From Nocardioides faecalis (GTDB lineage: Bacteria; Actinomycetota; Actinomycetes; Propionibacteriales; Nocardioidaceae), in NCBI RefSeq assembly GCF_018388425.1, contig NZ_CP074406.1, forward strand, positions 1,054,001 to 1,118,000: DNA of 64,000 nt, read 5' to 3'. The first letter of the stretch is position 1. Every line of letters begins with the position of its first letter. Made by a program: the position numbers and the translations under genes. The notes beneath the pieces are model-generated. The model saw only the letters and a list, made by a program, of their open reading frames with translations. It was not told the origin of the DNA and made no database searches. Below are positions 1 to 44,150 of this stretch, piece after piece.

Positions 1-6
1 CCTGAG

Positions 7-1239
7 ATGACCACAGCTTCCCTTGGCTCGGCGATCGTCGCCGGCGCAGGCCCGGTCGGATTGACCGCGGCGCTGATCCTGGCCCGTGCCGGTGTGCAGG
101 TGACCGTGCTGGAGGCCGGGGACGCCCTGGCCACCGAGTCGCGCGCCTCGACCTTCCACCCGCCGAGCCTGGAGATGCTCGCCGAGCTGGGCGTGCTGGA
201 GACGCTCATGGAGCGCGGCATCGTCTCGACCGGGTTCCAGTACCGCGACCGCCGTACCGGCCCGATCGCCGACCTCGACCTCGGTGTGCTCGCCGAGGAC
301 ACGCCGTACCCGTTCCGGGTCCAGGCCGAGCAGTCCAAGCTGACGCCGATCCTCCTCGAGGTGCTCGAGGGCCTGGACAACGTCACCGTCCGCTTCGGGC
401 AGCGCGTCGTGGCCGCCGAGACGGTCTCCGGTCCGTCCGGGGAGCAGGGCGTGGTGCGCACCGAGGTGGGCGAGACCTTCGCGGCGGACTGGGTGCTCGG
501 TGCCGACGGGTCCAACTCGCAGGTCCGCCAGACCGCCGGGTTCACCTTCGAGGGCATGACCTACCCGGAGCGGTTCCTGGTCGCCTCCACCACCGAGGAC
601 CTGGACACGATCCTGCCGGGCATCTCGGCGGTCAACTACGTCTTCGACCCCACCGAGTGGCTGGTGCTGCTGCGCACGCCGGAGCACTGGCGGGTGCTGT
701 TCCCGACCGCGCAGGACACCCCCGACGAGGTCGAGAGCGACCCCGCCCGGGTGCAGGAGCGTCTCGCCGGCGTCGCCGACCTCGGCCGCGAGTGGGACGT
801 GCTGCACACGACGCTGTACCGGGTGCACCAGCGGGTCGCCGACGAGTTCCGCAAGGGCCGTCTGATCCTGATGGGCGATGCCGCGCACATCAACAACCCG
901 CTCGGCGGGATGGGCATGAACTCGGGCATCCACGACGCCCACGTCGAGACCAACGCCCTGCTGGCGCTGCTGCGTGGCGAGGGCACCCTGGAGGAGCTGG
1001 ACGAGGCGTGCGAGGCGCGCCGCGAGGTCGCGCTGTCCTACGTCAAGACCATCACCCACGACAACTGGGAGAAGCTGCGTCAGGACGACCCGGAGGCGAT
1101 CCGGGCCTACCACGACGAGCTGCGCGAGCTGGCCGGCGACAAGGAGCGGATGCGCAAGCACCTGCTCAACACCTCGATGATCAACTCGCTGCGCTCGGGC
1201 AAGGTCGTCGACATGGTCGGGGTCAAGGCGAGCGGATGA
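7..1239 (+). CDS. FAD-dependent aromatic-ring-type monooxygenase (PHBH/UbiH-like)
   Basis: The 410-residue protein has the class A flavoprotein monooxygenase layout. The FAD-binding 'GAGPVGLTAA' lies near residues 13-22, the 'GADGSNSQVRQ' DG motif near 165-175, and the 'LMGDAAHINNPLGGMGMN' FAD-ribityl motif near 285-302. Enzymes of this family use NAD(P)H and O2 to hydroxylate aromatic or enolic substrates. A stop codon (TGA at 3-5) just before the ATG suggests the gene sits inside an operon that begins outside the window. The ATG of the next gene overlaps its stop (ATGA). The substrate is unknown. Given the neighbours, it could oxidise a pyrrole-derived or other ring intermediate, but this is inference. 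Confidence 0.85.
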   Translation: MTTASLGSAIVAGAGPVGLTAALILARAGVQVTVLEAGDALATESRASTFHPPSLEMLAELGVLETLMERGIVSTGFQYRDRRTGPIADLDLGVLAEDTPYPFRVQAEQSKLTPILLEVLEGLDNVTVRFGQRVVAAETVSGPSGEQGVVRTEVGETFAADWVLGADGSNSQVRQTAGFTFEGMTYPERFLVASTTEDLDTILPGISAVNYVFDPTEWLVLLRTPEHWRVLFPTAQDTPDEVESDPARVQERLAGVADLGREWDVLHTTLYRVHQRVADEFRKGRLILMGDAAHINNPLGGMGMNSGIHDAHVETNALLALLRGEGTLEELDEACEARREVALSYVKTITHDNWEKLRQDDPEAIRAYHDELRELAGDKERMRKHLLNTSMINSLRSGKVVDMVGVKASG

Positions 1240-2675
1240 TCCAGCGGGAGAACCCGGCGCGCACCGACGAGGTGGTCGCGACGGTCCCCGTCGCCACCGC
1301 CGACGACGTCGACGCGGTCGTCACCGCCGCCGACGCCGCCCAGCGCACCTGGCGGGCGGTGCCCGTCGCCGAGCGCGCCGCGGTGCTGCTCGCCGCCGCC
1401 GACGCGCTGGCCGCGGAGGTCGACGCGATCGCCGAGGCGATGGCACGCGAGACCGGCAAGGTGCTCGGTGACGCCCGGGGCGAGGCCGGCTTCGCGGTGC
1501 ACGTGCTGCGGTTCTACGCCGGCCGGGCGCCGGAGCTGCTGGCCGAGGAGGTCCGCGACGACGAGCGCGGCCGCCTGGTCGTCCGGCACCGCCCGTACGG
1601 CGTCGTCGCCGCGGTCACCCCGTGGAACGCGCCGCTGATCCTGACCATGCTCAAGCTGGCGCCGGGCCTGGTGGCCGGCAACGCGCTGGTGGTCAAGCCC
1701 TCGCCGCTGGCCCCGGTCGCGGTGGCCCGGATGGTCGAGGTGCTCGCCACCCACCTGCCCGCAGGCCTCGTCGCCGTCGTGCAGGGCGGCGCGGAGACCG
1801 CGACCGCGCTGGTCACCCACCCGCGCACCGCGAAGGTCGCGTTCACCGGCGGCGACGTCGCCGGCCGCGCGATCGCGGCCACGGCCTCGCAGGCGCTGGT
1901 GCCCAGCGTGCTGGAGCTCGGCGGCAACGACGCAGCGGTGCTGCTCGACGACGTCGCCCTGAGCGAGGCCGACGCCGAGCGCCTGGTGATGGCGGCGTTC
2001 GCCACCTCCGGCCAGGTCTGCATGGCGATCAAGCGGCTCTACGTGCACCGCTCACGCCTGGACGAGGTGCTGGCCGCGATCCGTGCGGCCGCGGACCGGG
2101 TGCTGTGCGTCGGCGACCCGCTGCACGAGGGCAGCACGATGGGGCCGGTGGTCTCCGCGGAGTCCGCGCAACGGCTGCGGGCCCTGCTCGCGGCGGCCCT
2201 CGCGGACGGGGGAGAGGCGATCGAGCTCGGCGGGGTCAACCCGCGCAGCGACCTCTCGCGGGGGCACTTCGTGCGCCCGGTCCTGGTCACCGGGCTCGAC
2301 GACGCGCACCCGCTGGTCGCCGCCGAGCAGTTCGGCCCGATCCTGCCGGTGCTCGCCTTCGACTCCGTCGAGGAGGTCGTGGAGCGCGCGAACGCCACCG
2401 ACCTCGGCCTGGGGGCCTCGGTCTGGTCGGCCGACGAGGAGCGTGCGTTCGAGGTCGCCGCCCGGCTGGAGGCCGGCTTCACCTTCATCAACACCCACAA
2501 CCGCACCGGCATGGCCCTGGACGCGCCGTTCGGCGGGATCAAGGGATCCGGCTGGGGCCGGGAGTACGGCGACGAGGGGCTGATGGAGTACGTGCAGCCC
2601 TGCGTGATCAACGCGCCCGGCGCCTTCCGGGCCGGCGGCTCGGGCCTGGGCGCCGCGGCGTACCCCACCGCCTGA
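1236..2675 (+). CDS. NAD(P)+-dependent aldehyde dehydrogenase
   Basis: The protein is 479 residues, normal for the ALDH superfamily, and oxidises an aldehyde to its acid. The start is taken at the ATG overlapping the upstream stop; the open frame runs further upstream but only opposite the monooxygenase. Visible motifs are 'TPWNAP' with the following cofactor-binding 'VKPSPLAP', the general-base glutamate in 'LELGGNDAAV', and the nucleophilic cysteine in 'SGQVCMA'. The C-terminal 'APFGGIKGSGWGREYG' is typical. It looks like a succinate-semialdehyde or benzaldehyde dehydrogenase-type enzyme. It is probably translationally coupled to the monooxygenase. The substrate cannot be told from sequence. 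Confidence 0.88.
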   Translation: MIQRENPARTDEVVATVPVATADDVDAVVTAADAAQRTWRAVPVAERAAVLLAAADALAAEVDAIAEAMARETGKVLGDARGEAGFAVHVLRFYAGRAPELLAEEVRDDERGRLVVRHRPYGVVAAVTPWNAPLILTMLKLAPGLVAGNALVVKPSPLAPVAVARMVEVLATHLPAGLVAVVQGGAETATALVTHPRTAKVAFTGGDVAGRAIAATASQALVPSVLELGGNDAAVLLDDVALSEADAERLVMAAFATSGQVCMAIKRLYVHRSRLDEVLAAIRAAADRVLCVGDPLHEGSTMGPVVSAESAQRLRALLAAALADGGEAIELGGVNPRSDLSRGHFVRPVLVTGLDDAHPLVAAEQFGPILPVLAFDSVEEVVERANATDLGLGASVWSADEERAFEVAARLEAGFTFINTHNRTGMALDAPFGGIKGSGWGREYGDEGLMEYVQPCVINAPGAFRAGGSGLGAAAYPTA

Positions 2676-2787
2676 GGGCTTTTCGCCGCCCGGTGTGAGC
2701 CGGTTCACGACCCGAGCAGTGTCGGGCGGCGGCCGAGCGTCTGGGTACGAGGTCGGATTTTTGTGGGGCGCCCTCCCAAAAGCAGAG

Positions 2788-2803
2788 TAGATAGAATATA
2801 TTC
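2788..2803. promoter_or_regulatory. Regulon element A (AT-rich promoter/operator)
   Basis: TAGATAGAATATATTC contains a 12-bp perfect palindrome (AGAATATATTCT, 2793-2804) in otherwise GC-rich DNA, 29 bp before the 2832 start codon. It contains two TANNNT -10 candidates (TAGAAT, TATTCT). It matches similar elements in front of six other operons of the island (consensus about TAGATRN-ATATATGATC). Confidence 0.6.
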
Positions 2804-2831
2804 TTCAGTGAGTCGTCTAGGAGGACACCAC

Positions 2832-3644
2832 ATGAGCCAGACCCTGAAGTCCGTGCGCGAGTTCTACGACGAGGCGCCGCCCACCGACATCTCCGAGCTC
2901 TTCGCCACCTGGATGGACCTCGTCGACGGCCTCAAGGACAAGGTGGCCGACCGCTTCGAGCTCAAGCGCGACCCCTCGACGCTGCCGCTGGAGTCCTTCG
3001 GTGGCGAGAACGGCGGCCCCACCGGCCGGATCCGCGGCTACGTGGGCCCCGAGATCGACTGGATGATCCACTCCCACATGGAGAACGCCAAGGTCGGCTT
3101 CGCCAACATCCACCTGACCATCTGGCTCGGCCCCCAGGTCAAGGTGCCGCACTTCGGCCTCGCCCTCGGCGCCTTCCCGCAGGCCTGGATCTTCGTGGAC
3201 TCGGTGCCGCGCACCAACCTGCTCGTCGACACCGACTCCTACGACCGCTACTACGGTCCGCTCAACGCCGAGTGGGAGCAGGTCCAGCAGGAGAACGACT
3301 TCCTCAAGCCGTTCGTCAGCCGCAGCGGCTTCGTGCGTGCGAGCCTGTCGCCCATGGCCCATGCCTACACCGCCACCATCGACGAGCGGACCACCGAGCT
3401 GGTCACCAAGCTGGCCCACGACCACCTGGACCGCTGGCTGGGCTGGGTCGACGCGGCCGAGAAGGTGCCGGCCGAGGAGCAGGCAGCCCTGGCCGCCGCC
3501 GACCTCGCCACCCGACGCAACGTCGCCGAGCGCGACCCCGCCAACGAGATGGGCGACCGCTTCTTCGGCAAGGAGCTGACCGAGCAGCTCGTGCGCTCCC
3601 TGTGGGGCGGCGACCGCGAGCTGCCGCGTCCGCACGAGGCCTGA
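2832..3644 (+). CDS. Red chlorophyll catabolite reductase (RCCR)-like protein, paralogue 1
   Basis: The start is the ATG preceded by TAGGAGGA; an upstream in-frame start at 2763 lies before the promoter element. The 270-residue protein lines up with plant RCCR (ferredoxin-dependent bilin reductase superfamily) across most of its length. Shared blocks are 'IDWMIHSHM' (75-83), 'KVPHFGLALG' (104-113), 'SYDRYYGPLNAEW' (136-148), 'SGFVRASLSPMA' (165-176) and 'RDPANEMGDRFFG' (234-246). The last block falls at or next to plant Asp291. The plant catalytic Glu154 position is Ala111 here, so this copy may bind rather than reduce, or use another donor. RCCR reduces a linear tetrapyrrole with ferredoxin electrons. 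It leads an operon with a hydrolase, Rieske oxygenase and second paralogue. The homology was aligned by eye from remembered plant sequence. Confidence 0.75.
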   Translation: MSQTLKSVREFYDEAPPTDISELFATWMDLVDGLKDKVADRFELKRDPSTLPLESFGGENGGPTGRIRGYVGPEIDWMIHSHMENAKVGFANIHLTIWLGPQVKVPHFGLALGAFPQAWIFVDSVPRTNLLVDTDSYDRYYGPLNAEWEQVQQENDFLKPFVSRSGFVRASLSPMAHAYTATIDERTTELVTKLAHDHLDRWLGWVDAAEKVPAEEQAALAAADLATRRNVAERDPANEMGDRFFGKELTEQLVRSLWGGDRELPRPHEA

Positions 3645-3655: not shown

Positions 3656-4663
3656 ATGACCGTCACCGCAGCACCATCGCAGCTCGTCCGGGCACACCGC
3701 ACCGCGGTGCGGGTGCCCGGCGCTGCCGCGCCGTTCGACACGTTGCACGTCACGCTGCGCCACCCGGCGTTGCCGGCGGCCAGCGACGTCGAGCGGATGA
3801 GCGGCATGCTGCGCGCCGACCCGACCGGGGCGCCGTACCCGGTCGTGGTGGTGCTGCCTGGGGTCAACGTCTCCTCCACCGGCTACCTCGACCTCGCCGT
3901 CGCGCTCGCGCAGGCGGGGATGGTCGCGGTCACCTTCGACTGGGTGGGCGAGCTCTTCGCAGGTCAGCACGGCCTGACCCCCGGCGTGGACCTCGCGGTG
4001 GTGGGCCCTGAGACCTACGGCACCGCACCGACGACCCCGGTGCTCGCGCCGCTGCTGGAGGCCCTGGCCTCCTGCAATGCCGAGGGCCCCCTGGCCGGGC
4101 TGCTCGACCTGGACCGGGTCGGGCTCTTCGGCCACTCCGCCGGCGGCACCGTCGCCCTGCAGTCCGCGCGTGCCGAGTGGTTCCCGCAGGTGCGCGCCGT
4201 GGCGACGTACGGCGCCCACACCATGGCCTCCCAGCAGCTCGGCCACCCGGCCGGGACCCTGCTGCCGGCGCCGGTCTCGGTGCCGGTGATGCTCGTGGCC
4301 GGCACCGCCGACGGCGTCGTCGCCGCGAGCGCCATCCGGTACGGCGAGGAGGCCGGCGCGCCGGCGCACGACCCGGTCGAGCGCACGTTCGTCGAGGCGC
4401 TGCCCGCCGACACCGAGGCGTGGCTGGTCCGGCTCGCGGGCGCGGGCCACATGCTCCCGGCCGCGCCGGAGGACCCCACCTCGGCCCGCGGCTTCCTCGA
4501 GGAGCCCCTCACCGCGGATGCCGAGCACCTGCGCGGCGTCCTCGTCGAGCTGCTCGTCGCCTTCTACTCTTCCCGCCTCGGCACCGACGCCGTTGCGACC
4601 ACCGTCTTGGCCGGCTTGGCCGATGACCCCCGACCCGAGATCGCCGACATCCGTCGCCGCTAG
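3656..4663 (+). CDS. Alpha/beta hydrolase, chlorophyllase/dienelactone-hydrolase-like
   Basis: This 335-residue serine hydrolase has 'PYPVVVVLPGVN' (oxyanion strand, about 60-71), the nucleophile elbow 'GHSAGG' (about 158-163), an 'AGTADGVV' acid region and 'GAGHMLP' supplying the catalytic His. The order and spacing resemble chlorophyllase (which has GHSRGG) and PET-hydrolase/dienelactone-hydrolase-type enzymes. Chlorophyllase removes the phytol ester of chlorophyll, and a side-chain ester of a tetrapyrrole is a sensible substrate in this operon. No signal peptide is visible, so it should be cytoplasmic. It begins 11 bp after the RCCR-like gene. A general esterase role cannot be excluded. 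Confidence 0.7.
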   Translation: MTVTAAPSQLVRAHRTAVRVPGAAAPFDTLHVTLRHPALPAASDVERMSGMLRADPTGAPYPVVVVLPGVNVSSTGYLDLAVALAQAGMVAVTFDWVGELFAGQHGLTPGVDLAVVGPETYGTAPTTPVLAPLLEALASCNAEGPLAGLLDLDRVGLFGHSAGGTVALQSARAEWFPQVRAVATYGAHTMASQQLGHPAGTLLPAPVSVPVMLVAGTADGVVAASAIRYGEEAGAPAHDPVERTFVEALPADTEAWLVRLAGAGHMLPAAPEDPTSARGFLEEPLTADAEHLRGVLVELLVAFYSSRLGTDAVATTVLAGLADDPRPEIADIRRR

Positions 4664-4677: not shown

Positions 4678-5979
4678 ATGTTCAAGAACTTCTGGTACGC
4701 GGTCGAGTTCAGCACCGACCTCAAGGTCGGTGAGCCCAAGAAGGTCAAGATCCTCGGCCAGCAGCTGGTGCTCTACCGCAAGAACAGCGACAAGTCCGTC
4801 GTCGCGATGTCGGACCTGTGCGTGCACCGCGGTGCCGCGCTGTCGGACGGCTCGGTCAAGGGCGACTGCATCGTGTGCCCCTACCACGGCTGGGAGTTCC
4901 AGCCCGACGGCGTGGTCAGCCGCATCCCCGCGCACCCCGACAAGGGCATCCCGCGCAAGGCGCGGATCGACTCCTACCCGGTCGTCGAGAAGTACATGTT
5001 CATCTGGGTCTACATGGGCGACCTCCCCGAGGAGGAGCGCCCGCCGATCCCGGACTGGTCCGCGATCGACGACACCGAGAACTTCCGTGCGGTGAGCGGC
5101 TCCTTCCTGTGGAAGTCGAACTACGAGCGCATCCTCGAGAACGGCGTCGACGTCGCGCACACCCCGTTCGTGCACGGCGGTGTCTTCGGCAACCCGGAGA
5201 AGCCCGAGGTCCCGGAGTTCGTGGTCGAGGAGTCGGAGTGGCACTGCAAGATCTCCATCGAGCTCAACCCGCCGCGCTCCAAGGGCCTGTGGGGCGTCAT
5301 CAACCCCAACAAGCAGGACCTCGCGAACCGCCCGCCGGTCCCGGTCTCCACGACCTGGTGGCTGCCGAACATGATCCTGCTCGAGATCGGCACCCCGATG
5401 GGCGCGATGAAGATCTTCGACGTCAACATCCCGATCGACGAGGACACCACCCTGGTCAAGTTCGTCGCGCTGCGCTCGTTCTTCAAGGGCAAGTGGGCCG
5501 ACCGCGACGCTCTGCGCCGCGTCTTCAAGGTGCTCTACGAGGACCAGGGCATCGTCGACGCCGTCCGTCCCGAGCTGCTGCCCTTCGACCTCTCCTCGGA
5601 GCTGCACGTCAAGAGCGACTACAACGCGGTGCTCTACCGCCGACGCCGCCAGCAGCTGCTGGAGATGGGCTGGGGCGTGGAGGACAACACCATCGTCGGT
5701 GAGGGCCCGGCCCGGGTCGAGGCCCGCGTGATCCCCTCGCCGGTGCGCCGCGAGGTGCCCGAGCTGGCCAGCGCGTGGAACTTCAAGGAGGTCCGCAGCC
5801 GCGAGATCCTCGCCGGCCGCGGCGAGGCGCCGGTGCGCCAGGAGCGGCGCCTGGTGATGGACGACCCCGAGAAGCCCGGCACCGACGCCAAGGCCGACGA
5901 CTCGGCCGCCAAGCCCGACGCCAACAAGGCCGGTGCCACCGCCCCGGCCACCGCCAAGGACAAGGAAGTGACCGCATGA
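4678..5979 (+). CDS. Rieske non-heme iron oxygenase, pheophorbide-a-oxygenase-type
   Basis: The start follows TAGGAGGAA. The Rieske 2Fe-2S ligands are C48/H50 ('CVHRGAALS') and C67/H70 ('CPYHGWEF'). The mononuclear iron site is N155-D158-H161-H166 in 'NGVDVAHTPFVH'. This has the same spacing as pheophorbide a oxygenase (PAO), CAO and Tic55, and also fits vanillate-demethylase-type oxygenases. The N-terminal 'WYAVEF', 'QLVLYR' and 'IWVYMG' blocks agree with that clade. PAO opens the chlorin ring with O2 and ferredoxin. The plant C-terminal CxxC and membrane anchor are absent. Instead the last 45 residues are a low-complexity Asp/Lys/Ala tail. No electron-transfer partner is encoded nearby. Ring cleavage of a tetrapyrrole is inference. 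Confidence 0.82.
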   Translation: MFKNFWYAVEFSTDLKVGEPKKVKILGQQLVLYRKNSDKSVVAMSDLCVHRGAALSDGSVKGDCIVCPYHGWEFQPDGVVSRIPAHPDKGIPRKARIDSYPVVEKYMFIWVYMGDLPEEERPPIPDWSAIDDTENFRAVSGSFLWKSNYERILENGVDVAHTPFVHGGVFGNPEKPEVPEFVVEESEWHCKISIELNPPRSKGLWGVINPNKQDLANRPPVPVSTTWWLPNMILLEIGTPMGAMKIFDVNIPIDEDTTLVKFVALRSFFKGKWADRDALRRVFKVLYEDQGIVDAVRPELLPFDLSSELHVKSDYNAVLYRRRRQQLLEMGWGVEDNTIVGEGPARVEARVIPSPVRREVPELASAWNFKEVRSREILAGRGEAPVRQERRLVMDDPEKPGTDAKADDSAAKPDANKAGATAPATAKDKEVTA

Positions 5980-6716
5980 GCCTCCCCGGTGGACTCTGCA
6001 ACCGCACCGTCGACACCCTCGTCGACCGACTCGGCGCCAAGGAGGTCACCGGCCCCGACGGTGGCCCGTTCCAGGTGCTGGGCTCCGTGATGGGCCCCGA
6101 CCCGGTCGGGTCCGTGCGGATCTGGACCAGCGAGAAGGTCGCCAAGATCGTCTACATCGGCGTCGTGGTGCCCCAGATCGGTCTCGACTCGCACATGGTG
6201 TTCGCCTTCGGGCACGAGGACTCCCCGATCCCGCACTTCACGCTGGACTCGGTGGCCGCGGGCGGTCACCTGGCGTTCCACCTCGACCTGATCCAGCGCG
6301 TCGACGCCGGCATCCACATGGTCTACAACGACTGGGCGCACACCCCGATCAGCGCCGCGTTCGAGGAGCTGAACACCCTCGAGGGCCTCTCCAAGGCGCA
6401 GCTCGAGCCGCGCCAGCTCACCGTGATGTCCTCGTGGATGGTCGCCAACCGGGCCAACCCCGAGGCGTTCGAGAAGCTCGATGGTCCGGTCAACGCCTAC
6501 CTGGAGCACTGGCTGTCCCTGGTCGACTCCGAGGTTCCGGCCGCGGTGCTGGCCGACATCGAGGACACAAACCTCGCGGTGCGCGACGCCAAGAACCGGG
6601 CGCTGCTGTTCAGTGCCGACGTCGACAAGGTGTGGGCCCAGATGACGCGCCTGCTCGGCGAGGAGACCTCGGAGAAGCTGCGCCTGCAGCTGGCCTCCAA
6701 CCAGATCAGCGCATGA
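5976..6716 (+). CDS. RCCR/ferredoxin-dependent bilin reductase-like protein, paralogue 3 (acidic residue retained)
   Basis: The ATG overlaps the Rieske stop codon. The 246-residue protein is shorter and more divergent than paralogues 1 and 2 but keeps the same order. It has a central 'IPHFTLDSVAAGG' (85-97), a hydrophobic strand 'HLAFHLDLI', 'LEHWLSLV' (176-183) and a C-terminal 'VRDAKNRALL'. Asp91 falls where plant RCCR has catalytic Glu154, whereas paralogues 1 and 2 have Ala and Val. Asp204 falls near plant Asp291. It is therefore the best candidate for the catalytically active bilin reductase of the three. Its place directly after the oxygenase mirrors the plant order of reaction (PAO then RCCR). 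Remote homology was judged by eye only. Confidence 0.6.
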   Translation: MSLPGGLCNRTVDTLVDRLGAKEVTGPDGGPFQVLGSVMGPDPVGSVRIWTSEKVAKIVYIGVVVPQIGLDSHMVFAFGHEDSPIPHFTLDSVAAGGHLAFHLDLIQRVDAGIHMVYNDWAHTPISAAFEELNTLEGLSKAQLEPRQLTVMSSWMVANRANPEAFEKLDGPVNAYLEHWLSLVDSEVPAAVLADIEDTNLAVRDAKNRALLFSADVDKVWAQMTRLLGEETSEKLRLQLASNQISA

Positions 6717-10874: not shown

Positions 10875-10893
10875 CTATTTAATATATCATCTA
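10875..10893. promoter_or_regulatory. Regulon element B (divergent sortase / surface protein)
   Basis: CTATTTAATATATCATCTA lies between the sortase start (10874, -) and the 10934 gene (+). Read on the minus strand it begins TAGATGATATATT, matching the shared consensus. It holds TANNNT boxes for both directions. Confidence 0.6.
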
Positions 10894-13123: not shown

Positions 13124-13141
13124 CGATATCGTATATAGTTC
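13124..13141. promoter_or_regulatory. Regulon element C (weaker match), ABC importer promoter
   Basis: CGATATCGTATATAGTTC, 23 bp before the GTG at 13165, is AT-rich and includes TATATAG. It fits the shared consensus only with a one-base insertion, so it is the least certain of the seven elements. Confidence 0.4.
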
Positions 13142-15259: not shown

Positions 15260-18162
<2,903 letters not shown>

Positions 18163-23508: not shown

Positions 23509-23513
23509 GGGCG

Positions 23514-30952: not shown

Positions 30953-30961
30953 GAGGCACCG

Positions 30962-33070: not shown

Positions 33071-33088
33071 CGATCATATATCTTATCG
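33071..33088. promoter_or_regulatory. Regulon element E (secreted protein promoter)
   Basis: CGATCATATATCTTATCG, 51 bp before the 33140 start. On the minus strand it reads CGATAAGATATATGATCG, an excellent match to the shared element. TATCTT is a plausible -10. Confidence 0.65.
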
Positions 33089-36570: not shown

Positions 36571-36588
36571 TAGATAGGATATATGAAT
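36571..36588. promoter_or_regulatory. Regulon element F filling the 17-bp gap between divergent genes
   Basis: TAGATAGGATATATGAAT occupies the whole space between the start codons at 36569(-) and 36587(+). It contains TAGGAT six bases before the plus ATG and, on the other strand, TATCCT six bases before the minus ATG. Both transcripts would be leaderless and a bound regulator would block both. Confidence 0.65.
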
Positions 36589-37561
36589 GAGCGCTTCCTG
36601 GATCTACGGTCCGTTGATCTCGACCGACGACTTCGCCGGCCACGCCGCGCTGCTCGGCCGCACCTACGGGATGGCGCCGCGCGGCGCGGGCCGCCTCGGG
36701 GGCGCGGACGCCGAGGCGCTGCTGGGCGAGGGGTTCGCCGCCGACCTGCAGGTGCTCGGCACTCCCGGGGTCACGGCCGGTGCCGTGCTGTGTCGCTTCG
36801 ACGGCCCGCCCGCGCCGCCGGTGCGCGACGAGGAGAGCCGGCTGTTCCGCGACGCGTTCCGGGTCATCGACTTCTACGCCCCCGACTTCGCCGCGGCACT
36901 GGAGCACTCCGCGGCGGCCGGCTTCCCGATGCACACCAAGGAGGCGTCGTACGAGCTGGCGGAGGGCAGCTTCCGCGAGGCGCACGTCGAGGCACCCGAC
37001 AACGTGATGACGGCGTTCCTCAGCGGTCCCGCCGACTTCTTCACCGAGTTCGCCCAGGTCCGCGACCGGATCGCCAGCGAGCCGGTGAGCATCTCGCTGC
37101 CGCTCAGCGACGCCGCGACGACGACCGCGTTCTACCGTGACGTGTTCGGCTGGGGCGTCGTCTACGAGTACGACTTCGTCGACGCCTCGTTCTCCGCGAT
37201 GCTCGGTATCGACGGTGAGGACGCCGAGCCGATCAAGGTGTGCTCGCAGGCGCTCGGCCCGAGCCGGGACCGGACCTACGTCAACATCGTCGACTACGGC
37301 CTGCCCGCCGACCGCGCCGGCTCGCTGCTGGGTGCGTCCGTGCCGCCGCGCCGCGGCCTGCTCGGCCTCGTCGTGCTCACCGACGACCTGGACGGTGTCG
37401 TCGCCCGGGCCGGTGCGGACGCCCGGCTGGGGGAGGTCGTCGACGTCGACCTGCCCGGCTTCGGAAGCAGCAGGGCCACGACGTTGCGGGCGCCTTTCGG
37501 CGCTCCGCACGTCGTGGCCCAGCCGCGTGATGCAGAGGCGATCCTCAGAGCGGACGCTTGA
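36587..37561 (+). CDS. Two-domain VOC (glyoxalase/extradiol-dioxygenase fold) protein
   Basis: The ATG at 36587 is chosen over an out-of-frame ATG at 36583 because only this frame stays open (324 residues). Both halves look like vicinal-oxygen-chelate units: 'WIYGPLISTDDFAGHAALLG' with 'RVIDFYAPDFAAALEHSAAAGFPMH', and 'SISLPLSDAATTTAFYRDVFGW' with 'GLVVLTDDLDGVVARAG'. VOC enzymes bind a divalent metal through His/Glu and include ring-cleaving dioxygenases, isomerases and epimerases. The usual His ligands are not clear in the second half, so it may be an unusual member or a binding protein. The 3' end overlaps the convergent amidohydrolase gene by 17 bp. Confidence 0.72.
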   Translation: MSASWIYGPLISTDDFAGHAALLGRTYGMAPRGAGRLGGADAEALLGEGFAADLQVLGTPGVTAGAVLCRFDGPPAPPVRDEESRLFRDAFRVIDFYAPDFAAALEHSAAAGFPMHTKEASYELAEGSFREAHVEAPDNVMTAFLSGPADFFTEFAQVRDRIASEPVSISLPLSDAATTTAFYRDVFGWGVVYEYDFVDASFSAMLGIDGEDAEPIKVCSQALGPSRDRTYVNIVDYGLPADRAGSLLGASVPPRRGLLGLVVLTDDLDGVVARAGADARLGEVVDVDLPGFGSSRATTLRAPFGAPHVVAQPRDAEAILRADA

Positions 37562-39011
37562 GGTAGGTGCCCGACGGCGCCTCGTCGGTGACGGCGCCGT
37601 CGGTCATGATCCGCTTGCCGCGCAGGAAGGTGTCGGTCACCTTCGCGCTCAGCTCGGCGCCCTCGAACGGCGTGTACTCCTGGGTGGACTCCGACTCCTC
37701 CGCGCGCACCGTCCAGGTGTGGGCGTCGTCGACCAGCGCGACGTCGGCGTCCAGGCCGACCGCGATCGCGCCCTTGCGGCCGCCGAGGCCGTAGCGGGTG
37801 GCCGGGTTGGTCGCGGTCAGCTCGGCGATCCGGCCGTAGGCCAGGCCCCGCTTGCCGCCCTCGCTGACCATGCCGGCCAGCAGGTACTCGGCGCCGCCGA
37901 AGCCGGACTTGGCCAGGAACACGTCGTCCTTGGGCTCGCCGAACTTCAGCTCCTCCTTGCAGCAGGCGTGGTCGGAGACGACCCAGTCGATCTTGCCGTC
38001 GAGCAGGTAGGACCACAGCGCCTCGACGTCCTCACGCGGACGCAGCGGCGGGTTCACCTTGCCGCCGACGCCGTGCGCGGTGTCGCAGTCGGCGAGCAGG
38101 TGCCCGACGGTGACCTCGCGGCGGAAGTCGATGTGCGGGAACGCCGCGGCCATCGTCAGCGCCGCCTCGACCGCCTTGCGGGAGGTCAGGTGCAGCAGGT
38201 TGATCGTGGGCAGCTGCGTCTCGTGCGCCAGGTACGACGCGATGGTGACCGCGAGGCCCTCGGAGTGCGGCGGCCGGGAGGCGGAGTAGGCGGGCAGGCC
38301 CTTGAGCTCGCCCTCCTCCTCGACCATCTTCGTGTAGGCGGCCATGATCTCGGCGGTCTCGCAGTGCAGCGACAGCGAGATCGCCTCGGCGATCTCGGGG
38401 TTCTCCTCGCGGGCCTTCTGGATGCCGCGCATGACGAACTCGAAGTGCGCGTAGTCGTAGCGCTCGCCCTCGGGGGTCATCAGGAACTCGGACTGGTCGG
38501 TGCTGCGGCCGTGCAGGCCGTGGCTGCCGTAGAACATGAACACCTTGAACGAGGTGACGCCGTGGTCGGTGATCAGGCTCGGGATCTCACCGATCTGCGC
38601 CTTGCTCATCGGGGCCAGGTGGTAGGTGTAGTCGACCAGCGCGTTGCCCTGCGTCTGCGCCAGCACCTCGGGGAAGAAGTCGGCGTAGGCGCCGCCCTTG
38701 TTCAGGTAGTACTGGCCGGTGCGCATGTAGGACAGCGACGTGGTCACACCGCCCTGGGCGCAGGCGCGCGACTCGGTGCGCACGTCGTCGGGCAGCGGGT
38801 TGTAGATGCCCCAGTGCTGGTGGGCGTCCACGACGCCGGGGAAGGCCACCTTGCCGCCGGCGTCGACGACCTCGGCCGCGCTCGCCGGGTCGATGCCGGC
38901 CTCGATCCGGGCGAACTTGCCGTCCTTGACGGCGATGTCGACCGCCTGCGGCTCGTCGTGGCCGGGCAGGACGGCCTTGACGTTGGTGAGGAGGACGTCG
39001 TACTCGGTCAC
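37545..39011 (-). CDS. Amidohydrolase of the hydantoinase/dihydropyrimidinase/imidase family
   Basis: The GTG at 39011 overlaps the upstream stop. The open frame extends further but only across the PrpD gene. The 488-residue TIM-barrel enzyme has the binuclear metal set: 'DAHQHWG' (HxH), the carboxylated Lys in 'TSFKVFMFY', His in 'LHCET', His in 'LLHLTS' and Asp in 'VVSDHACC'. The family opens cyclic amides and imides (hydantoins, dihydropyrimidines, succinimide or maleimide). In a tetrapyrrole-type island, maleimides such as ethylmethylmaleimide or hematinic acid imide are obvious candidates; this assignment is inference. It ends the minus operon from element G. Confidence 0.82.
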   Translation of the reverse strand: MTEYDVLLTNVKAVLPGHDEPQAVDIAVKDGKFARIEAGIDPASAAEVVDAGGKVAFPGVVDAHQHWGIYNPLPDDVRTESRACAQGGVTTSLSYMRTGQYYLNKGGAYADFFPEVLAQTQGNALVDYTYHLAPMSKAQIGEIPSLITDHGVTSFKVFMFYGSHGLHGRSTDQSEFLMTPEGERYDYAHFEFVMRGIQKAREENPEIAEAISLSLHCETAEIMAAYTKMVEEEGELKGLPAYSASRPPHSEGLAVTIASYLAHETQLPTINLLHLTSRKAVEAALTMAAAFPHIDFRREVTVGHLLADCDTAHGVGGKVNPPLRPREDVEALWSYLLDGKIDWVVSDHACCKEELKFGEPKDDVFLAKSGFGGAEYLLAGMVSEGGKRGLAYGRIAELTATNPATRYGLGGRKGAIAVGLDADVALVDDAHTWTVRAEESESTQEYTPFEGAELSAKVTDTFLRGKRIMTDGAVTDEAPSGTYLKRPL

Positions 39012-40507
39012 AGGGACTCTCCTTGGTTGACGGCGGGGCTGAACGTGGACAGGGGCTTCAGCACGGCGGCCAGGTCGGTCGCGGTGTGCAGGTCGAGGAC
39101 GTCGGCGCTGACGGCGCCGGCGGTCTCGGGGGACAGGCGTCCGGCGACGTTGTCGCGGAACTTGGTGGCCAGCTCGTCGTCGGTCAGCGGACGCGCCGGC
39201 CCGCCGCGGTTGGCCAGCACCTCCTCGACGAGGACCTCGCCGTCCGCCGTGGTCAGGGTGACCACGGCGGGGAACTGGAAGGGGAAGATCTCGTTGCACT
39301 TCTCGTCGGCGACCACGTCGACCTTCGCCATCAGCTCCCGGCGGGCGGGGTCCTGGGCGAGGGTGTCGGAGTAGTCGTCGAGGCTGGTGCCGAGCCCGCC
39401 GCCGCCGAGCAGGCCCGCGGCGAAGGCGTAGGGGCCGGAGAACTGCGCCTGGTAGCCGGTCTCAGGGGTCCGCTTGACCTCGATCGGCTCGCCGATGGTG
39501 CGCACCGTCGAGCCGGCGACGCCGACCACGACCTTCGCGACCTGCTCGGGGGTGATCCCGCGCTCGCGGAACGCACGGCCCGCGTCCACCGTGGTGTGCG
39601 TGAAGTGGTTGGCCGGGTAGGGCTTGAAGAAGATGCCCGGCACCGACCACGCGGTGCCGAGGTCCTCGGTGATCGCGGTGGGGAAGAACTGGCCGTGCAG
39701 CCACGCCTGGAAGAAGCCGAAGCGGCCCTCGAGCACGGTCGGCGGGCCGGTGAAGCCGCGCCGCACCAGCTGCGCGGCGGTGACGCCGGCCTGGGCGGCG
39801 ACGCCGCAGTGCAGCCGCTTGACGGTGCCGCCGGTCCGGTTCGCCTCGATGACGCCGGCCGCCATGGAGGCGGTGATGCCGAGCGCGTCGGCGATGCCGC
39901 CTGCGTCCAGGCCGTAGATCATCGACGCCGCGACCGAGGAGCCCATCGCGCCGGTGATCGAGGTGGCGTGCTGGCCGTGCTCGAAGAACACGGAGTTGCC
40001 CAGCTCGGCGTCGTAGCCGGCCATGCCGAGGCGGACGGCGACCTCGATGCCGACCGCGATCGCGCGGACGGTGAGCTCGCCGGAGGCGCCGGCGTGCTCG
40101 GCGGCGGCCAGCGCGGCCGGCACGATGCTGGCGCTCGGGTGCAGCACCGAGGGCAGGTGCGTGTCGTCGTAGTCCAGGGAGTGCGCGAGCACGCCGTTGG
40201 CGAAGGCGGCCTGGGCGGCGTTGACCCGGGTGCTCTCACCGACGACCGTGGCCTGCGGGTGCCCGCCCTGGTCGAGCACGTGCCCGATCGCGGCCGCGGA
40301 GGTGGGCAGCCGGTGCGCGGCGACGCACAGGCCCAGCACGTCGAGCGTGCGCTGGTTGACCGAGCTGCGCACGTCGTCCGGCACCCCGTGCGCGGCGACA
40401 TGGGCGGCGAAGGCGCCCAGCTGCTGGGCCAGGGTGGGCCCGCCGTCGGCGGCGTACGTCGGGTTGCCGGCCGGGTTCGCCTCAGGCGCGGGGGAGTAGG
40501 TGCTCAT
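39008..40507 (-). CDS. MmgE/PrpD-family protein, second copy
   Basis: The 499-residue protein carries 'LAHSLDYDDTHLPS' and 'EHGQHATSITGAMGSSVAAS', with 'AVVTLTTADGEVLVEE' in the C-terminal domain, as in MmgE/PrpD proteins. It is divergent from the 25762 copy and probably acts on a different acid. It has a disordered N-terminal lead of about 25 residues. Its start overlaps the end of the cyclase gene and its end overlaps the amidohydrolase start, so all are co-translated. Hydration, dehydration, decarboxylation or epimerisation of a substituted dicarboxylate is possible. Confidence 0.83.
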   Translation of the reverse strand: MSTYSPAPEANPAGNPTYAADGGPTLAQQLGAFAAHVAAHGVPDDVRSSVNQRTLDVLGLCVAAHRLPTSAAAIGHVLDQGGHPQATVVGESTRVNAAQAAFANGVLAHSLDYDDTHLPSVLHPSASIVPAALAAAEHAGASGELTVRAIAVGIEVAVRLGMAGYDAELGNSVFFEHGQHATSITGAMGSSVAASMIYGLDAGGIADALGITASMAAGVIEANRTGGTVKRLHCGVAAQAGVTAAQLVRRGFTGPPTVLEGRFGFFQAWLHGQFFPTAITEDLGTAWSVPGIFFKPYPANHFTHTTVDAGRAFRERGITPEQVAKVVVGVAGSTVRTIGEPIEVKRTPETGYQAQFSGPYAFAAGLLGGGGLGTSLDDYSDTLAQDPARRELMAKVDVVADEKCNEIFPFQFPAVVTLTTADGEVLVEEVLANRGGPARPLTDDELATKFRDNVAGRLSPETAGAVSADVLDLHTATDLAAVLKPLSTFSPAVNQGESL

Positions 40508-41334
40508 GCGCCCACCACGGCGATCGGGCGGACCGGGGAGCCGGTGGCGCCGAAGAACTTCAGCGGGCTCATCACGAACAGGAACTCCTGCGCGCCGGAG
40601 GCGGCCAGGCCCTCGAGGTCGAGCGCCTCGATGATGTAGATGCCGCGCTCCACCAGCAGCACCCGGTGCGCGGGCAGCAGGCCGTGGCCGGCGCCGGGCT
40701 TGAGCTGCTCGTAGGCGATGGTGTCCGCGCCGGTGGCGTGGATGCCGGCCTCGGCGAGGAACGTGGCGCCGGCGTCGGAGACCCCGGGCACGCCCGTGGA
40801 CAGGCCGCGGTAGGTGTCGCCGTCGCCGTTGTCGAAGTGCTGGCCCCAGCCGGAGCGCACCAGGACGACGTCGCCCTCACGGATCTCGGTGCCCTGCTTG
40901 GCCAGCGTGGTCTCGAGGTCGGCGACGGTGATCTCCTGGCCCGGCTCGAGCCGGCCCACGCCGAGGGCGGCCGGCACGTCGAGCAGCACGCCGCGGCGCA
41001 CCATCGGCGCGATGGTGTGCGCGCCGTGCTCGAGGAACTTGCCGCCGACCTGCGCCTCGTAGGCGTCCACGTCGCCGTACAGCTTGCCGTCCTGGGAGAC
41101 GTGGGCGAGCGCGTCGACGTGGGTGCCGACGTGGGTGCCCATCGAGATCATGTCGTTGGCGGCCGAGCCGCCGTCGCCGCGGACCATGTCGCCGTGGCGG
41201 CGCGGCATGGCGTGCCAGTACGCCGGGTGGTTGGGCGACTGCGGCATGCCGACGGTCAGGGTGCGGCCGAGGTCGACGACCTCGACGCCCGCGGCGACGG
41301 CGGCGAGCAGCTGCTCGGTGACGGTGTTGTTCAT
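40504..41334 (-). CDS. Cyclase-family metal-dependent amidohydrolase (kynurenine formamidase/isatin hydrolase-like)
   Basis: The 276-residue protein has the family metal motif 'HVGTHVDALAH' (about 92-102), 'LLDVPAALG', 'GDVVLVRSGWG' and a C-terminal 'PVRPIAVV'. Members hydrolyse formamides, isatin or cyclic amides with Mn or Zn. Next to an imidase-type enzyme it could complete the second hydrolysis, from half-amide to free diacid and ammonia, or open a lactam. The start is the ATG after AGGACAGAGG on the minus strand. It follows the CoA-transferase after a 128-bp gap with no recognisable feature. Confidence 0.83.
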   Translation of the reverse strand: MNNTVTEQLLAAVAAGVEVVDLGRTLTVGMPQSPNHPAYWHAMPRRHGDMVRGDGGSAANDMISMGTHVGTHVDALAHVSQDGKLYGDVDAYEAQVGGKFLEHGAHTIAPMVRRGVLLDVPAALGVGRLEPGQEITVADLETTLAKQGTEIREGDVVLVRSGWGQHFDNGDGDTYRGLSTGVPGVSDAGATFLAEAGIHATGADTIAYEQLKPGAGHGLLPAHRVLLVERGIYIIEALDLEGLAASGAQEFLFVMSPLKFFGATGSPVRPIAVVGA

Positions 41335-41462
41335 GGTTCCTCTGTCCTTCGGCGTACGACGACCCGCGGCGGGTCGCTGTTCGGTGCGGCTCGGGTCGGT
41401 GCTCGTGGGCGTGCTCGTGGCGGTGATCGGGGCGCGGGCTGCGGCCAGGCGTGCTGGCGGGC

Positions 41463-42659
41463 TCAGCGGACGGCGCCGCGGGAGCGGAGCTCCGCGACGT
41501 CCTCGGGGGTGATCCCGAGGCTGTCCAGCACGACGTCGGTGTCGGCGCCGAGGTCCCGGCCGGTGAACCGGATCGAGCCCGGCGTCTCCGACATCCGCCA
41601 CATCACGTTGTGCTGCAGGACGCGGCCGAAGTCGGCGTCCTCGACCTCGACGAGCATCTCGGTCTCGCGCACGTGCGGGTCCTCGACGAGGTCCTGGGCG
41701 GTGTAGATCGGCGCGATCGCGGCACCGGCCTCGGTGAAGGCGTCGACGACCTCCTCGCGGGTGCGGGCGGCGATCCAGGAGCCGACCATCTCGTCGAGCT
41801 CGTCGGCGTGCTGTGCCCGGCTGTGGCCGGCGGCGAACCAGGGCTCGTCGATGACCTCGGGGTGCCCGACCAGGCGCATCACCCGCTCGGCGATGGCCTG
41901 GGCGCTGGTGGAGATGGCGACCCACTGGTCGTCGGAGGTGCGGTAGGTGTTGCGCGGGGCGTTGTTGGTGGAGCGGTTGCCGTGGCGCATGCCGACCTCG
42001 CCGGTCTGCTGGTAGACCGTGGGGCCGGGGCCGACCGCGGTCATCAGCGGGCTGAGCAGGTCGAGGTCGATGACCTGGCCCTTGCCGCCGTTGCGCTCGC
42101 GGGCGAAGAGCGCCATCGAGACCGCGGAGGAGGCGGCGATGCCGGCGATGGAGTCCGCCAGGCCGAAGGCCGGCAGGGTGGGCGGGCCGTCGGCCTCACC
42201 GGTCAGGTGCGCGAAGCCGCTCATCGCCTCGGCGAGGGTGCCGAAGCCGGCGCGCGAGGAGTAGGGGCCCTTCTGGCCGAACCCGGTCACCCGGAGCACG
42301 ATCAGGCCGGGGTTGAGCTCGTGCAGCACCTCGGGGCCGATGCCCCAGCGCTCCAGGGTGCCGGGACGGAAGTTCTCCACCACCACGTCGGCCTGGGAGG
42401 CCAGCGCCTTGAAGATGTCGGCGCCGTCGGGGTTGGAGAGGCTGAGCCCGAGGGTCTGCTTGTTGCGGCTGATCTCCTTCCACCAGATCGGCGTGCCGTC
42501 CTTGGCAGGGCCGTGGCCGCGCATGCCGTCCCCGGCCTTGGGGTGCTCGATCTTGATCACGTCCGCACCGAAGTCGCCGAGGATCTGGCAGGCCAGCGGC
42601 CCGGCGAGGATGGTGGATGCGTCCAGGACTCGAATACCGGTCAGGGGACCCTGGGTCAT
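41463..42659 (-). CDS. Family III (CaiB/BaiF) CoA-transferase, second copy
   Basis: The 398-residue protein has 'GIRVLDASTILAGPLACQILGDFGADVIKIEHP' at the N-terminus, 'SRNKQTLGLSLSNPDGADI' and the putative catalytic Asp in 'GLADSIAG'. It resembles succinyl-CoA:acid CoA-transferases (mesaconate, itaconate, citramalate). Being first in the operon with an imidase-like and a cyclase-like hydrolase, it is placed to activate the diacid they release. Its start lies 34 bp from element G, which it shares with the divergent flavoprotein. Confidence 0.87.
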   Translation of the reverse strand: MTQGPLTGIRVLDASTILAGPLACQILGDFGADVIKIEHPKAGDGMRGHGPAKDGTPIWWKEISRNKQTLGLSLSNPDGADIFKALASQADVVVENFRPGTLERWGIGPEVLHELNPGLIVLRVTGFGQKGPYSSRAGFGTLAEAMSGFAHLTGEADGPPTLPAFGLADSIAGIAASSAVSMALFARERNGGKGQVIDLDLLSPLMTAVGPGPTVYQQTGEVGMRHGNRSTNNAPRNTYRTSDDQWVAISTSAQAIAERVMRLVGHPEVIDEPWFAAGHSRAQHADELDEMVGSWIAARTREEVVDAFTEAGAAIAPIYTAQDLVEDPHVRETEMLVEVEDADFGRVLQHNVMWRMSETPGSIRFTGRDLGADTDVVLDSLGITPEDVAELRSRGAVR

Positions 42660-42692: not shown

Positions 42693-42708
42693 GATCATAT
42701 ATCATCTA
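42693..42708. promoter_or_regulatory. Regulon element G (divergent CoA-transferase / flavoprotein)
   Basis: GATCATATATCATCTA (minus strand TAGATGATATATGATC) is the best match to the shared consensus. It touches the ATG of the 42708 gene and stands 34 bp from the 42659(-) start. Confidence 0.65.
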
Positions 42709-44150
42709 TGACTGTGACTGAGGTGGACGTCGTCGTCGTCGGAGCCGGTGCTGCTGGGATGGCCTGCGCCATCCACGCCGCACGCGGCGGGGCCAAGGTG
42801 CTGCTGGTGGACAAGGACCGCCGCCTGGGAGGCACGCTGCACCTCAGCGGGGGCCACCTTGCCGCGGGCGGCACGCCGCAGCAAGCGGCGCTCGGCATCG
42901 AGGACTCACCCGAGGCCCACCTCGAGGACGTCCGCCGGATCAGCCGGGGCAGCGCGCGGGAGGACCTGGTGGGCACCGTGACCGCGCACGCCCCCGGCAC
43001 CATCGCCTGGCTCGCCGACGCCGGCTTCAACTTCTCCCCGGAGACCCCGCGCATCGTCTACGGCCACGAGCCCTACCGCACCGCCCGCACCTACTACGGC
43101 GTCGACGAGGGGATGTCGATCCTCACCGTCCTCGAGGCCGAGCTCGAGGCGACCCAGGCCGAGGCCGACCTCGAGGTCTGGCTCGGCGCGGCCGTGGTCG
43201 ACCTCGTCGAAGGCGCCGACGGGATCGCCGGGGTGCACCTGGACCGCTCCGGCAAGGACGAGCAGGTCCGCGCCCGCGCCGTCGTCCTCGCCACCGGCGG
43301 GTACGGCGCCGACCCCGAGCTGTTCACCGAGATGCACGGCGCGCCGCTGGTCTCCGCGGCCGCCAAGACCTCCACCGGCGACGGCATCCACCTCGGCATG
43401 TCCGTGGGCGCCGCGCTGCAGGGGGAGGGCACCTACCTGCCCACCTTCGGCGGCCTGCCCGACCCGGTCTCCCCGGGCCGGGCCAACTGGAACGACCGGC
43501 AGCGCCTGACCAGCGAGCGACCGCCGTGGGAGATCTACGTCGACCGCGACGGCAAGCGCTGGATCGCCGAGGACGAGGAGTCCATCGACGAGAAGGAGCG
43601 CGCCCTGGTCGGCGTCGGTGACCAGACGTTCTGGACCGTCTTCGACGACGCGGCGCTCGCCCAGGCGACCGGCGACCTGCAGATCGTGGTCGGCAAGGAG
43701 CCCGACGAGGTGCGTGCCATGGCCAACACCCGGCCCGGCGTGCACTCCGCCGCCACGATCGGTGAGCTCGCGGCCAAGGCGGGCATCGACCCGGCCGGGC
43801 TCGAGGCGGAGGTGGCGTCGTACAACGCGGCGGTGGCGGCGGGCGTCGACGAGAAGTTCGGCCGAGTGCACCTGCCCGCCCCGATCGCGGCCGGGCCGTT
43901 CTATGCGATCCGCAACCACGCGATCACCCTGGTCACCTTCGTCGGCCTCGACATCGACGCCGACTGCGGGGTGCGCGCCGAGGACGGCAGCACCATCTCG
44001 GGCCTGTACGCCGTCGGCGAGGTCATCGGCGCCGGCGCCACCTGCGGCAACAGCTTCTGCTCCGGCATGCTGCTGACGCCCGCGCTGACCCTGGGCCGGC
44101 TGCTCGGTGCCCGGCTGGCCAGCCAGGTCGCGGCACCGGTCACCGCGTGA
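42708..44150 (+). CDS. FAD-dependent oxidoreductase of the fumarate reductase/KstD superfamily
   Basis: The 480-residue flavoprotein has 'VVVVGAGAAGMACAIHAARGG' (about 8-28), 'LVDKDRRLGGTLHLSGGH', 'VVLATGGYGADPELF' and a C-terminal 'GLYAVGEVIGAGATCGNSFCSGMLL'. Enzymes of this class reduce or form C=C bonds next to carbonyls (fumarate reductase, 3-ketosteroid dehydrogenase, urocanate reductase). It could reduce an alkylfumarate to a succinate or desaturate a lactam ring. The ATG touches element G. A GTG two codons later (42714) would sit better relative to the TATCAT box, so the exact start is uncertain by two residues. Confidence 0.83.
   Translation: MTVTEVDVVVVGAGAAGMACAIHAARGGAKVLLVDKDRRLGGTLHLSGGHLAAGGTPQQAALGIEDSPEAHLEDVRRISRGSAREDLVGTVTAHAPGTIAWLADAGFNFSPETPRIVYGHEPYRTARTYYGVDEGMSILTVLEAELEATQAEADLEVWLGAAVVDLVEGADGIAGVHLDRSGKDEQVRARAVVLATGGYGADPELFTEMHGAPLVSAAAKTSTGDGIHLGMSVGAALQGEGTYLPTFGGLPDPVSPGRANWNDRQRLTSERPPWEIYVDRDGKRWIAEDEESIDEKERALVGVGDQTFWTVFDDAALAQATGDLQIVVGKEPDEVRAMANTRPGVHSAATIGELAAKAGIDPAGLEAEVASYNAAVAAGVDEKFGRVHLPAPIAAGPFYAIRNHAITLVTFVGLDIDADCGVRAEDGSTISGLYAVGEVIGAGATCGNSFCSGMLLTPALTLGRLLGARLASQVAAPVTA

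Follow-up and report, generated by a model that had tools for sequence, protein, structure and literature searches.

Plant chlorophyll breakdown ends at phyllobilins or small oxidation products, and in the lower nicotinate (maleamate) pathway the NicDFE enzymes take maleamate to maleate and on to fumarate. Yearly chlorophyll synthesis and degradation are on the scale of 10^12 kg (PMC7318184). The pre-1 and pre-3 PcyA clusters are described in PMC10151467 as typically including heme oxygenase, an Fe-S protein, V4R proteins and bilin-binding globins. We analyzed a 64-kb window of the 3.86-Mb chromosome of an actinobacterium, Nocardioides faecalis (G000:C1:1054001-1118000; coordinates without a prefix are those of the window), that carries a conserved gene island around three proteins of the red chlorophyll catabolite reductase (RCCR)/bilin-reductase superfamily. 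The three proteins belong to that superfamily, their core operon has a fixed order, the genes co-occur across genomes, and a promoter element is shared between parts of the island. We incline, if only slightly, to the view that the island imports a bilin-type (linear tetrapyrrole) pigment and degrades it to central metabolites.

Three bilin-reductase relatives in a conserved island

In the G+C-phase gene call that we used (window G+C is 66-75% in 4-kb steps), ten genes, here A to J, run in one direction from 94 to 9943. Neighbors overlap by 1-4 bp from E to J and by 4 bp between A and B, so that gaps are found only between B and C (156 bp), C and D (62 bp) and D and E (14 bp); the 5′ end of A may extend further upstream than 94. 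Conserved order, tight spacing and, in the Nocardioidaceae, a shared element are what a catabolic operon would have, its joint transcription being putative.

C (RCCR1; 2832..3644, + strand) and RCCR2 (21048..21863, - strand) match PF06405 with E-values of 1.1e-14 and 1.9e-14 and scores of 54.7 and 53.9 bits, respectively, against a gathering score of 24.9. C also matches PF05996 at 5.3e-7, just under the cut-off, and its closest named relatives are from Nocardioides, Aeromicrobium and Mumia. The family profile of C matches Arabidopsis RCCR at 2.5e-17 and gtPEBB at 3.4e-9, and that of RCCR2 matches Arabidopsis RCCR at 4.7e-13; plant RCCR is the closest solved sequence relative of both. The third protein, F (5976..6716, +), has no Pfam match. 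Since no bilin reductase turned up when its family profile was run against solved sequences, we assign it by profile–profile comparison (hhalign probability 97.7, E 1.4e-12 against the C-family profile) and by its predicted fold, which is as close to the biliverdin-type reductases of plants, algae and cyanobacteria as to RCCR; on this modeling F is a member of the FDBR/RCCR superfamily. The preliminary description, made from the sequence before any profile search, had listed three RCCR-like proteins: profile searches place them inside the bilin-reductase superfamily, C and RCCR2 through PF06405 and F by the other two routes rather than by Pfam.

The predicted active sites differ among the three. 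We set the register on Arabidopsis RCCR (chain residue 111 is E154 and 248 is D291, an offset of 43 fixed on the F218V mutant), taking E154 to be the catalytic glutamate and D291 to be the second catalytic aspartate, and read the two columns from profile alignments of 16 (C), 18 (RCCR2) and 20 (F) sequences. The E154 column holds Ala111 in C (16/16 aligned; by motif, Ala in 115 of 120 listed proteins, with four lacking the motif and one having Thr), Val116 in RCCR2 (18/18) and Asp91 in F (20/20 aligned; 120/120 by motif). The D291 column is Asp throughout (D235 in C, 16/16; D239 in RCCR2, 18/18; D217 in F, 20/20). With acids at both columns, F looks like the competent bilin reductase of the three. 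C and RCCR2 remain in the family by sequence but have lost one acid, and of our results this one speaks most against calling either an RCC reductase by function.

To see how widely the operon is kept, relatives of C were sought in a collection of one genome per species (84,980 species). They are encoded on 143 stretches, and all per-locus counts given here refer to the best 80 of those 143. These 80 loci span 17 genera, including Nocardia, Actinomadura, Streptomyces, Catellatospora, Actinoplanes, Nonomuraea, Micromonospora, Streptosporangium, Nocardioides and Mumia, and 76 of them keep the order C-D-E-F-G-H; the exceptions are two loci without D, one that is rearranged and one with C alone. 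Homologues of J, B, A and I occur in 78, 73, 67 and 55 loci, respectively, and the C-N hydrolase family in 77. Searching for PF06405 in 396 genomes of the phylum gave matches in three, one of them our own. The other two led to more distant actinobacterial loci, where C, E, F and G lie side by side (41-51% identity) and H was recognized in neither. Both distant loci have relatives of the C-N hydrolase, an HMGL-type lyase, CaiB, J, A, an isochorismatase and HpcH; a cyclase, an MmgE/PrpD protein, the acyl-CoA-dehydrogenase-fold flavoprotein and an aldehyde dehydrogenase occur in one of the two. Of 293 genomes in the order to which the host belongs, the same 13 yield PF06405, F and G. We reject chance assembly on the strength of the gene order across 17 genera together with the three families in one set of 13 genomes: it is this co-conservation, not the list of plant-like enzymes, that makes the gene set non-random. 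Carriage on plasmids is also rejected: neither C nor G had a match among 72,556 plasmid records.

The other operon products are mostly of recognizable families. A is an FAD-dependent monooxygenase (94..1239, +; PF01494 3.4e-46; in 3/4 of the relatives G112, G246, G085 and G017, to which fractions of four refer throughout) and B an aldehyde dehydrogenase (1236..2675, +; PF00171 7.6e-135). D (3707..4663, +; 77/80 loci) is an alpha/beta hydrolase with a GHSAGG motif, and the solved relatives found for it are polyester hydrolases and cutinases. It had been called chlorophyllase-like, a label that its PF07224 score does not bear out (11.4 bits against a cut-off of 26, E 0.14), and a D relative is below the same cut-off (15.6 bits, E 0.0071). 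A secreted-looking hydrolase family encoded beside the operon in 27/80 loci gives a weak chlorophyllase score too (E 0.048, one member scanned). H (7666..8478, +; PF00106 1.1e-40; 79/80 loci) is a classical short-chain dehydrogenase (SDR), as is the product of 34726..35526 (-; PF00106 1.6e-42), which has a close counterpart in 2/4 relatives (67-75%) and paralogue-level matches in the others; the two had been described as NYC1/NOL-like, and generic SDR models match both, with generic SDR structures matching H as well. I (8478..9194, +) is a predicted membrane protein by its hydrophobic segments, with no Pfam family at 1e-3. J (9191..9943, +) belongs to the Amdase family (PF17645 8.8e-18, above the Pfam cut-off) of the arylmalonate decarboxylase/maleate isomerase superfamily; its scores against two NCBIfam equivalogs, EutA and arylmalonate decarboxylase, fall below the cut-offs, and it has two invariant cysteines, C121 and C198 (columns 11/11). 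G (6713..7669, +) has no Pfam match at 1e-3 or better and is predicted to form a two-barrel, calycin-like fold, shared with the plant protein BFA1 and a cyanobacterial DUF3598 protein; it is a possible bilin binder or chaperone.

E (4678..5979, +; 79/80 loci) is a Rieske non-heme iron oxygenase of the VanA_C type (PF00355 6.5e-24, PF19112 9.1e-22) whose nearest solved relatives are SxtDIOX, SxtT and NdmA. The earlier identification as PAO-like is ruled out by Pfam and by a whole-genome search, in which PF08417 was absent (the control matched in 2/14 genomes). These relatives, which include methylxanthine demethylases, bear on another explanation, namely that the bilin-reductase fold has been repurposed and that C, F and RCCR2 act in the degradation of an N-heterocycle or lactam that is not a tetrapyrrole, such as an alkaloid-, pyrrolidone- or hydantoin-like compound. 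The loss of the catalytic acid in C and RCCR2 would fit such a change of use, as would the hydantoinase/caprolactamase, isochorismatase and C-N hydrolase families, which are typical of lactam and amide catabolism. We find this explanation doubtful, though it deserves some weight.

A shared promoter element and the choice of substrate

An AT-rich element recurs across the island. Exact copies of GATATATGAT are found between RCCR2 and the 21909 gene (21877..21889, the exact match being at 21878), at 33072..33084 (-) and at 42693..42706 (-); the copy at 36577..36589, which reaches the start codon of the 36587 gene, has one mismatch, and those at 10881..10893 and 13125..13138 (upstream of the 13165 gene) have two each. 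The proposal of a common promoter element thus stands, except that the copy before C in the window (2793..2804, AGAATATATTCT) is weak, with 3 mismatches to GATATATGAT. When one mismatch at most is allowed, the window has 4 copies of GATATATGAT where 0.11 would be expected, all of them within intergenic sequence or bordering it. Across the genome, AGATATATGATC matches 16 sites if two mismatches are tolerated, and its reversed control 1; five of the 16, including three of the five best, fall in the island span (~1.6% of the genome), and with the source site excluded the count is 4/15 against 0.23 expected (P ~1e-4), a statistic that is partly circular because the pattern was picked for being shared by island regions.

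Among the 80 loci, 10/11 from Nocardioidaceae have a copy with two mismatches or fewer ~50 bp upstream of C (L034 is without it), and none of the other 69 does. A GntR gene is found in those same 11 loci; elsewhere an IclR gene lies near the operon (family in 27/80 loci; one member, from a Nocardia locus, was scanned). The obvious candidate to recognize the element is GntR; alternatively, the element might belong to a promoter. A further exact copy, at L132:7796 (G000:C1:957796) and ~96 kb before the window, directly precedes an MFS transporter gene (PF07690), which may be an outlying member of the regulon.

If the pigment is a bilin, two main substrates come into question. The preliminary description, while hedging on a bilin or phyllobilin, had noted the lack of a heme oxygenase: none is present among the island proteins scanned with Pfam, but the genome does encode one, at G000:C1:810071-810670, ~250 kb away. 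The hedge itself agrees with three bilin-reductase-superfamily proteins in one conserved island with a shared element. Heme oxygenase is found in 13/13 island genomes of the order against 93/293 overall (hypergeometric 1.8e-7, uncorrected for relatedness), and this association favors heme-derived bilins (biliverdin, bilirubin or urobilin), the island then consuming the product that heme oxygenase makes during heme-iron acquisition. We also sought heme oxygenase and RCCR2 in 45 of the 80 genomes, a set that overlaps with the 13. Heme oxygenase was matched in 36 of these 45 C-carrying genomes (25/34 outside the Nocardioidaceae), and F is as similar to biliverdin-type reductases as to RCCR, both in keeping with a heme bilin. 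On the other side, the kinship of the 13 genomes inflates the statistic, whose background is the one order rather than other genera; the gene lies outside the island; and nine of the 45 genomes have no heme oxygenase match, which rules out endogenous biliverdin as a universal substrate. The same 36/45 set against 13/13 led us to reject obligate coupling to heme oxygenase. We consider heme bilins a questionable choice as the substrate. Full-score RCCR2-type proteins were confined to the 11 Nocardioidaceae among the 45 genomes searched, and RCCR2 is therefore a feature of that family within this set.

The other substrate choice is chlorophyll remnants (pheophorbide, RCC or phyllobilins), the island being a bacterial counterpart of the plant PAO/phyllobilin pathway in which E would act by ring opening or hydroxylation and the RCCR proteins would reduce RCC-type bilins. 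Phyllobilins are favored by plant RCCR being the closest solved relative of C and RCCR2, which are nearer to it by sequence than to FDBRs. The Rieske gene adjoins the RCCR gene or is one gene away in 78/80 loci and in both distant ones, and the hosts come from soil genera that would meet leaf litter. The MES/hydroxynitrile-lyase-type alpha/beta hydrolase at 22247..22951 (+; 4/4 relatives) matches SABP2 at 1.1e-14 and a 'probable pheophorbidase' (5hk8) at 1.1e-8, in alignments of only the N-terminal ~105-110 residues; here the earlier MES/pheophorbidase-like label is borne out. Yet the genome has no PaO-family protein, the Glu154 equivalent is lost from C and RCCR2, D is not a chlorophyllase by score, and Staygreen (PF12638) gave no match in the genome, although its control matched in no genome either. 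Chlorophyll remnants as the substrate are, in our estimate, unlikely.

The wider island and a proposed route

The island is larger than the operon, and it does not begin at the first base of the window as had been thought: conserved genes continue for ~8 kb upstream. They encode a C-N hydrolase, the GntR/FCD regulator, a flavin reductase with an HMGL-like tail, an acyl-CoA-dehydrogenase-fold flavoprotein (possibly a monooxygenase), an aldehyde dehydrogenase and a PEP-mutase/methylisocitrate-lyase-like protein, and are present in 4/4 relatives, the lyase-like one in 3/4.

Downstream of the operon, a block from 10206 to 22951 comprising sortase, transporter and RCCR2 genes is kept in 4/4 relatives. 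It opens with the sortase (10206..10874, -; PF04203 3.4e-34), followed by a probable ABC substrate-binding lipoprotein of no Pfam family (13165..14520, +; assigned from its N-terminus by eye and its Liv neighbors), an ABC transporter ATPase of the branched-chain type by position (14546..15259, +; PF00005) and a fused Liv-type ABC permease and ATPase (15256..18162, +; PF02653, PF00005). Next come a neocarzinostatin-family protein (18172..18798, +; PF00960 7.3e-16) with LPKTG at residue 171 of 208 and a secreted-looking protein of no Pfam family with an LPGTG motif (18795..20054, +; 37-39% identity in the relatives); the sortase and these two LPXTG-motif proteins (18172-20054) stand between the two RCCR genes. 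The neocarzinostatin family is chromophore-binding. A second gene of this family lies near the operon of another genus (L078:16912-17496), and the 18172 protein has a tblastn relative in 28/80 loci. An NAD-dependent epimerase/dehydratase-type gene (20209..21051, -; PF01370 1.6e-17) overlaps RCCR2, and an ABM-family protein (21909..22250, +; PF03992 7.9e-7) precedes the MES-type hydrolase.

The rest of the island is more variable. A CoA module (22948..32958, +; 3/4 relatives), assigned by Pfam families, encodes MaoC/mesaconyl-CoA-hydratase-like, luciferase-like monooxygenase, CaiB, MmgE/PrpD and RidA-like proteins, then FAS1_DH plus MaoC, an SCP-x-type thiolase with a ChsH2 OB protein, an acyl-CoA dehydrogenase and an HpcH/citramalyl-CoA-lyase-like protein; it includes a match to the RipC model at 3.7e-54, below that model's cut-off. 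The 33191 gene has a counterpart in none of the four relatives, and the 35559 and 36587 genes in 1/4. A hydantoinase/allantoinase-like amidohydrolase, a candidate imidase or lactamase (37545..39011, -; TIGR03178 4.4e-63, 213.6 bits against a cut-off of 357.85), is followed by MmgE/PrpD, putative cyclase (arylformamidase-like) and CaiB CoA-transferase genes (39008..42659, -), which have homologues at 55-65% identity in distant locus L127. Near its C-E-F-G core, L127 carries a caprolactamase/hydantoinase A-B pair (L127:6614-10344), which the 37545 protein, of another family, may replace in the window. Next comes an FAD_binding_2 oxidoreductase gene (42759..44150, +; PF00890 8.5e-48; 1/4 relatives). 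We treat the tRNA-Gly predicted at 30801, within a called gene, as spurious. A Mutator-family transposase gene (49980-51155; PF00872 1.3e-128), located right of the island, sits in the stretch of lowest G+C in the window (0.665).

From these families we infer the following route for a bilin. The cell-wall-anchor-motif proteins, one of the neocarzinostatin family, and the Liv-type ABC transporter would capture the pigment, whole or in fragments, and bring it into the cell, and G could serve as a bilin holder. F would reduce a bilin double bond through the acids D91 and D217 with electrons from a ferredoxin encoded elsewhere, E would hydroxylate, dealkylate or cleave the chromophore, and C and RCCR2, without the first acid, may be altered reductases or partner subunits. 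D and the 22247 hydrolase would cut side-chain esters, and the flavin monooxygenases would take the pigment to maleimide-like single rings. The C-N-hydrolase, hydantoinase-type and isochorismatase-type amidases would then open these rings to substituted maleates, which J would isomerize or decarboxylate, and the final steps would fall to the CoA transferases, MmgE/PrpD proteins, hydratases and citramalyl-CoA/methylisocitrate-type lyases. According to PMC7318184, oxidation of chlorophyll and heme yields maleimides and hematinic acid. Maleimide breakdown would need amide-, imide- or lactam-opening enzymes and methyl-branched diacid lyases, as the island has; these, with the three bilin-reductase-superfamily proteins, make bilin catabolism the most economical reading.

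Several observations weigh against this reading. E resembles, by sequence, alkaloid and heterocycle demethylases and not PAO; the position of the first acid is occupied by Ala in C and by Val in RCCR2; unrelated barrels match the second barrel of G as well as bilin lyases do; and nine genomes lack a heme oxygenase match, as described above. The Pfam scan of island proteins, in which short ORFs could be overlooked, recognized no ferredoxin, several steps after F rely on families scoring under equivalog cut-offs, and in the leaves studied in PMC7318184 hematinic acid was detected and maleimides were not. Finally, the genes of 37545-42659 (hydantoinase, MmgE/PrpD, cyclase, CaiB) have close counterparts in only 2/4 relatives and the CoA module in 3/4, so the lower pathway is not uniform.

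A further alternative is that a pigment-type natural product is made or modified by the island instead of being degraded. Many of the hosts come from genera rich in natural products (Streptomyces, Actinoplanes, Nocardia), and ABM-family and flavin enzymes occur, but no assembly-line gene is present among the genes scanned, the GntR/FCD regulator (IclR in a Nocardia locus) and uptake-type ABC transporter signal catabolism, and the CoA-transferase, hydratase, thiolase and lyase genes are likewise a catabolic signature. We regard this as very improbable. Returning to bilin degradation, its strongest form would be a complete, regulated actinobacterial pathway for the mineralization of bilin-type tetrapyrroles, be they phyllobilins, heme bilins or both. 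Paired bilin-reductase relatives would act in it together with a Rieske oxygenase and a calycin bilin-holder, and maleimide/maleamate/maleate chemistry would follow. We put this forward tentatively, as a proposal somewhat short of evenly balanced.

Comparison with known systems

In the open-licence literature, which subscription journals are mostly outside, we found no published description of the operon or of bacterial bilin-finishing genes; some databases label single actinobacterial proteins 'red chlorophyll catabolite reductase'. As far as our searches go, then, the enzyme superfamily is known and the bacterial system is apparently undescribed. If our reading is true, the island would be a missing microbial sink for chlorophyll and heme pigments, a bacterial route from abundant bile- and chlorophyll-type pigments to ordinary food molecules, and the RCCR family would gain a place in the carbon metabolism of bacteria. 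It supplies testable candidates, in named genera, for the fate of bilins in soil.

The known systems each share a part with it. Unlike the pre-PcyA clusters, it shows no heme oxygenase, V4R or globin families among its Pfam-scanned proteins. Like the NicDFE system, it has an upstream isochorismatase-family amidase and an Amdase/Asp-Glu-racemase-superfamily protein, J, which differs in falling below the EutA and arylmalonate decarboxylase cut-offs and in offering its two invariant cysteines as catalytic candidates. The predicted fold of G is like that of DUF3598/BFA1 and nitrobindin/CpeS calycin proteins, from which it differs in its lack of a Pfam match; bilin binding by G is putative. With the plant PAO/phyllobilin pathway the island shares a Rieske gene beside RCCR genes and an MES-type hydrolase. 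The Rieske protein is of the VanA_C type, however, and no SGR, NYC1 or chlorophyllase assignment stands, so that of the mirror image of the plant enzyme set first proposed, only the MES-type hydrolase has sequence support beyond RCCR; the island also adds amidases and a CoA module, suggesting full degradation over detoxification.

The closest comparison is with plant RCCR itself (Arabidopsis; PDB 2zxk, 3agb). C and RCCR2 are above the family cut-off, F has the same predicted fold, and the Asp aligned with D291 is invariant in all three alignments. The differences are that the island is bacterial and brings three superfamily members together, that the Glu154 position is Ala (C), Val (RCCR2) or Asp (F), and that a PH motif stands in place of the PN of RCCR. 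Judged from these alignments, the RCCR family has a bacterial reservoir, with active sites that depart from that of the plant enzyme in a defined way.

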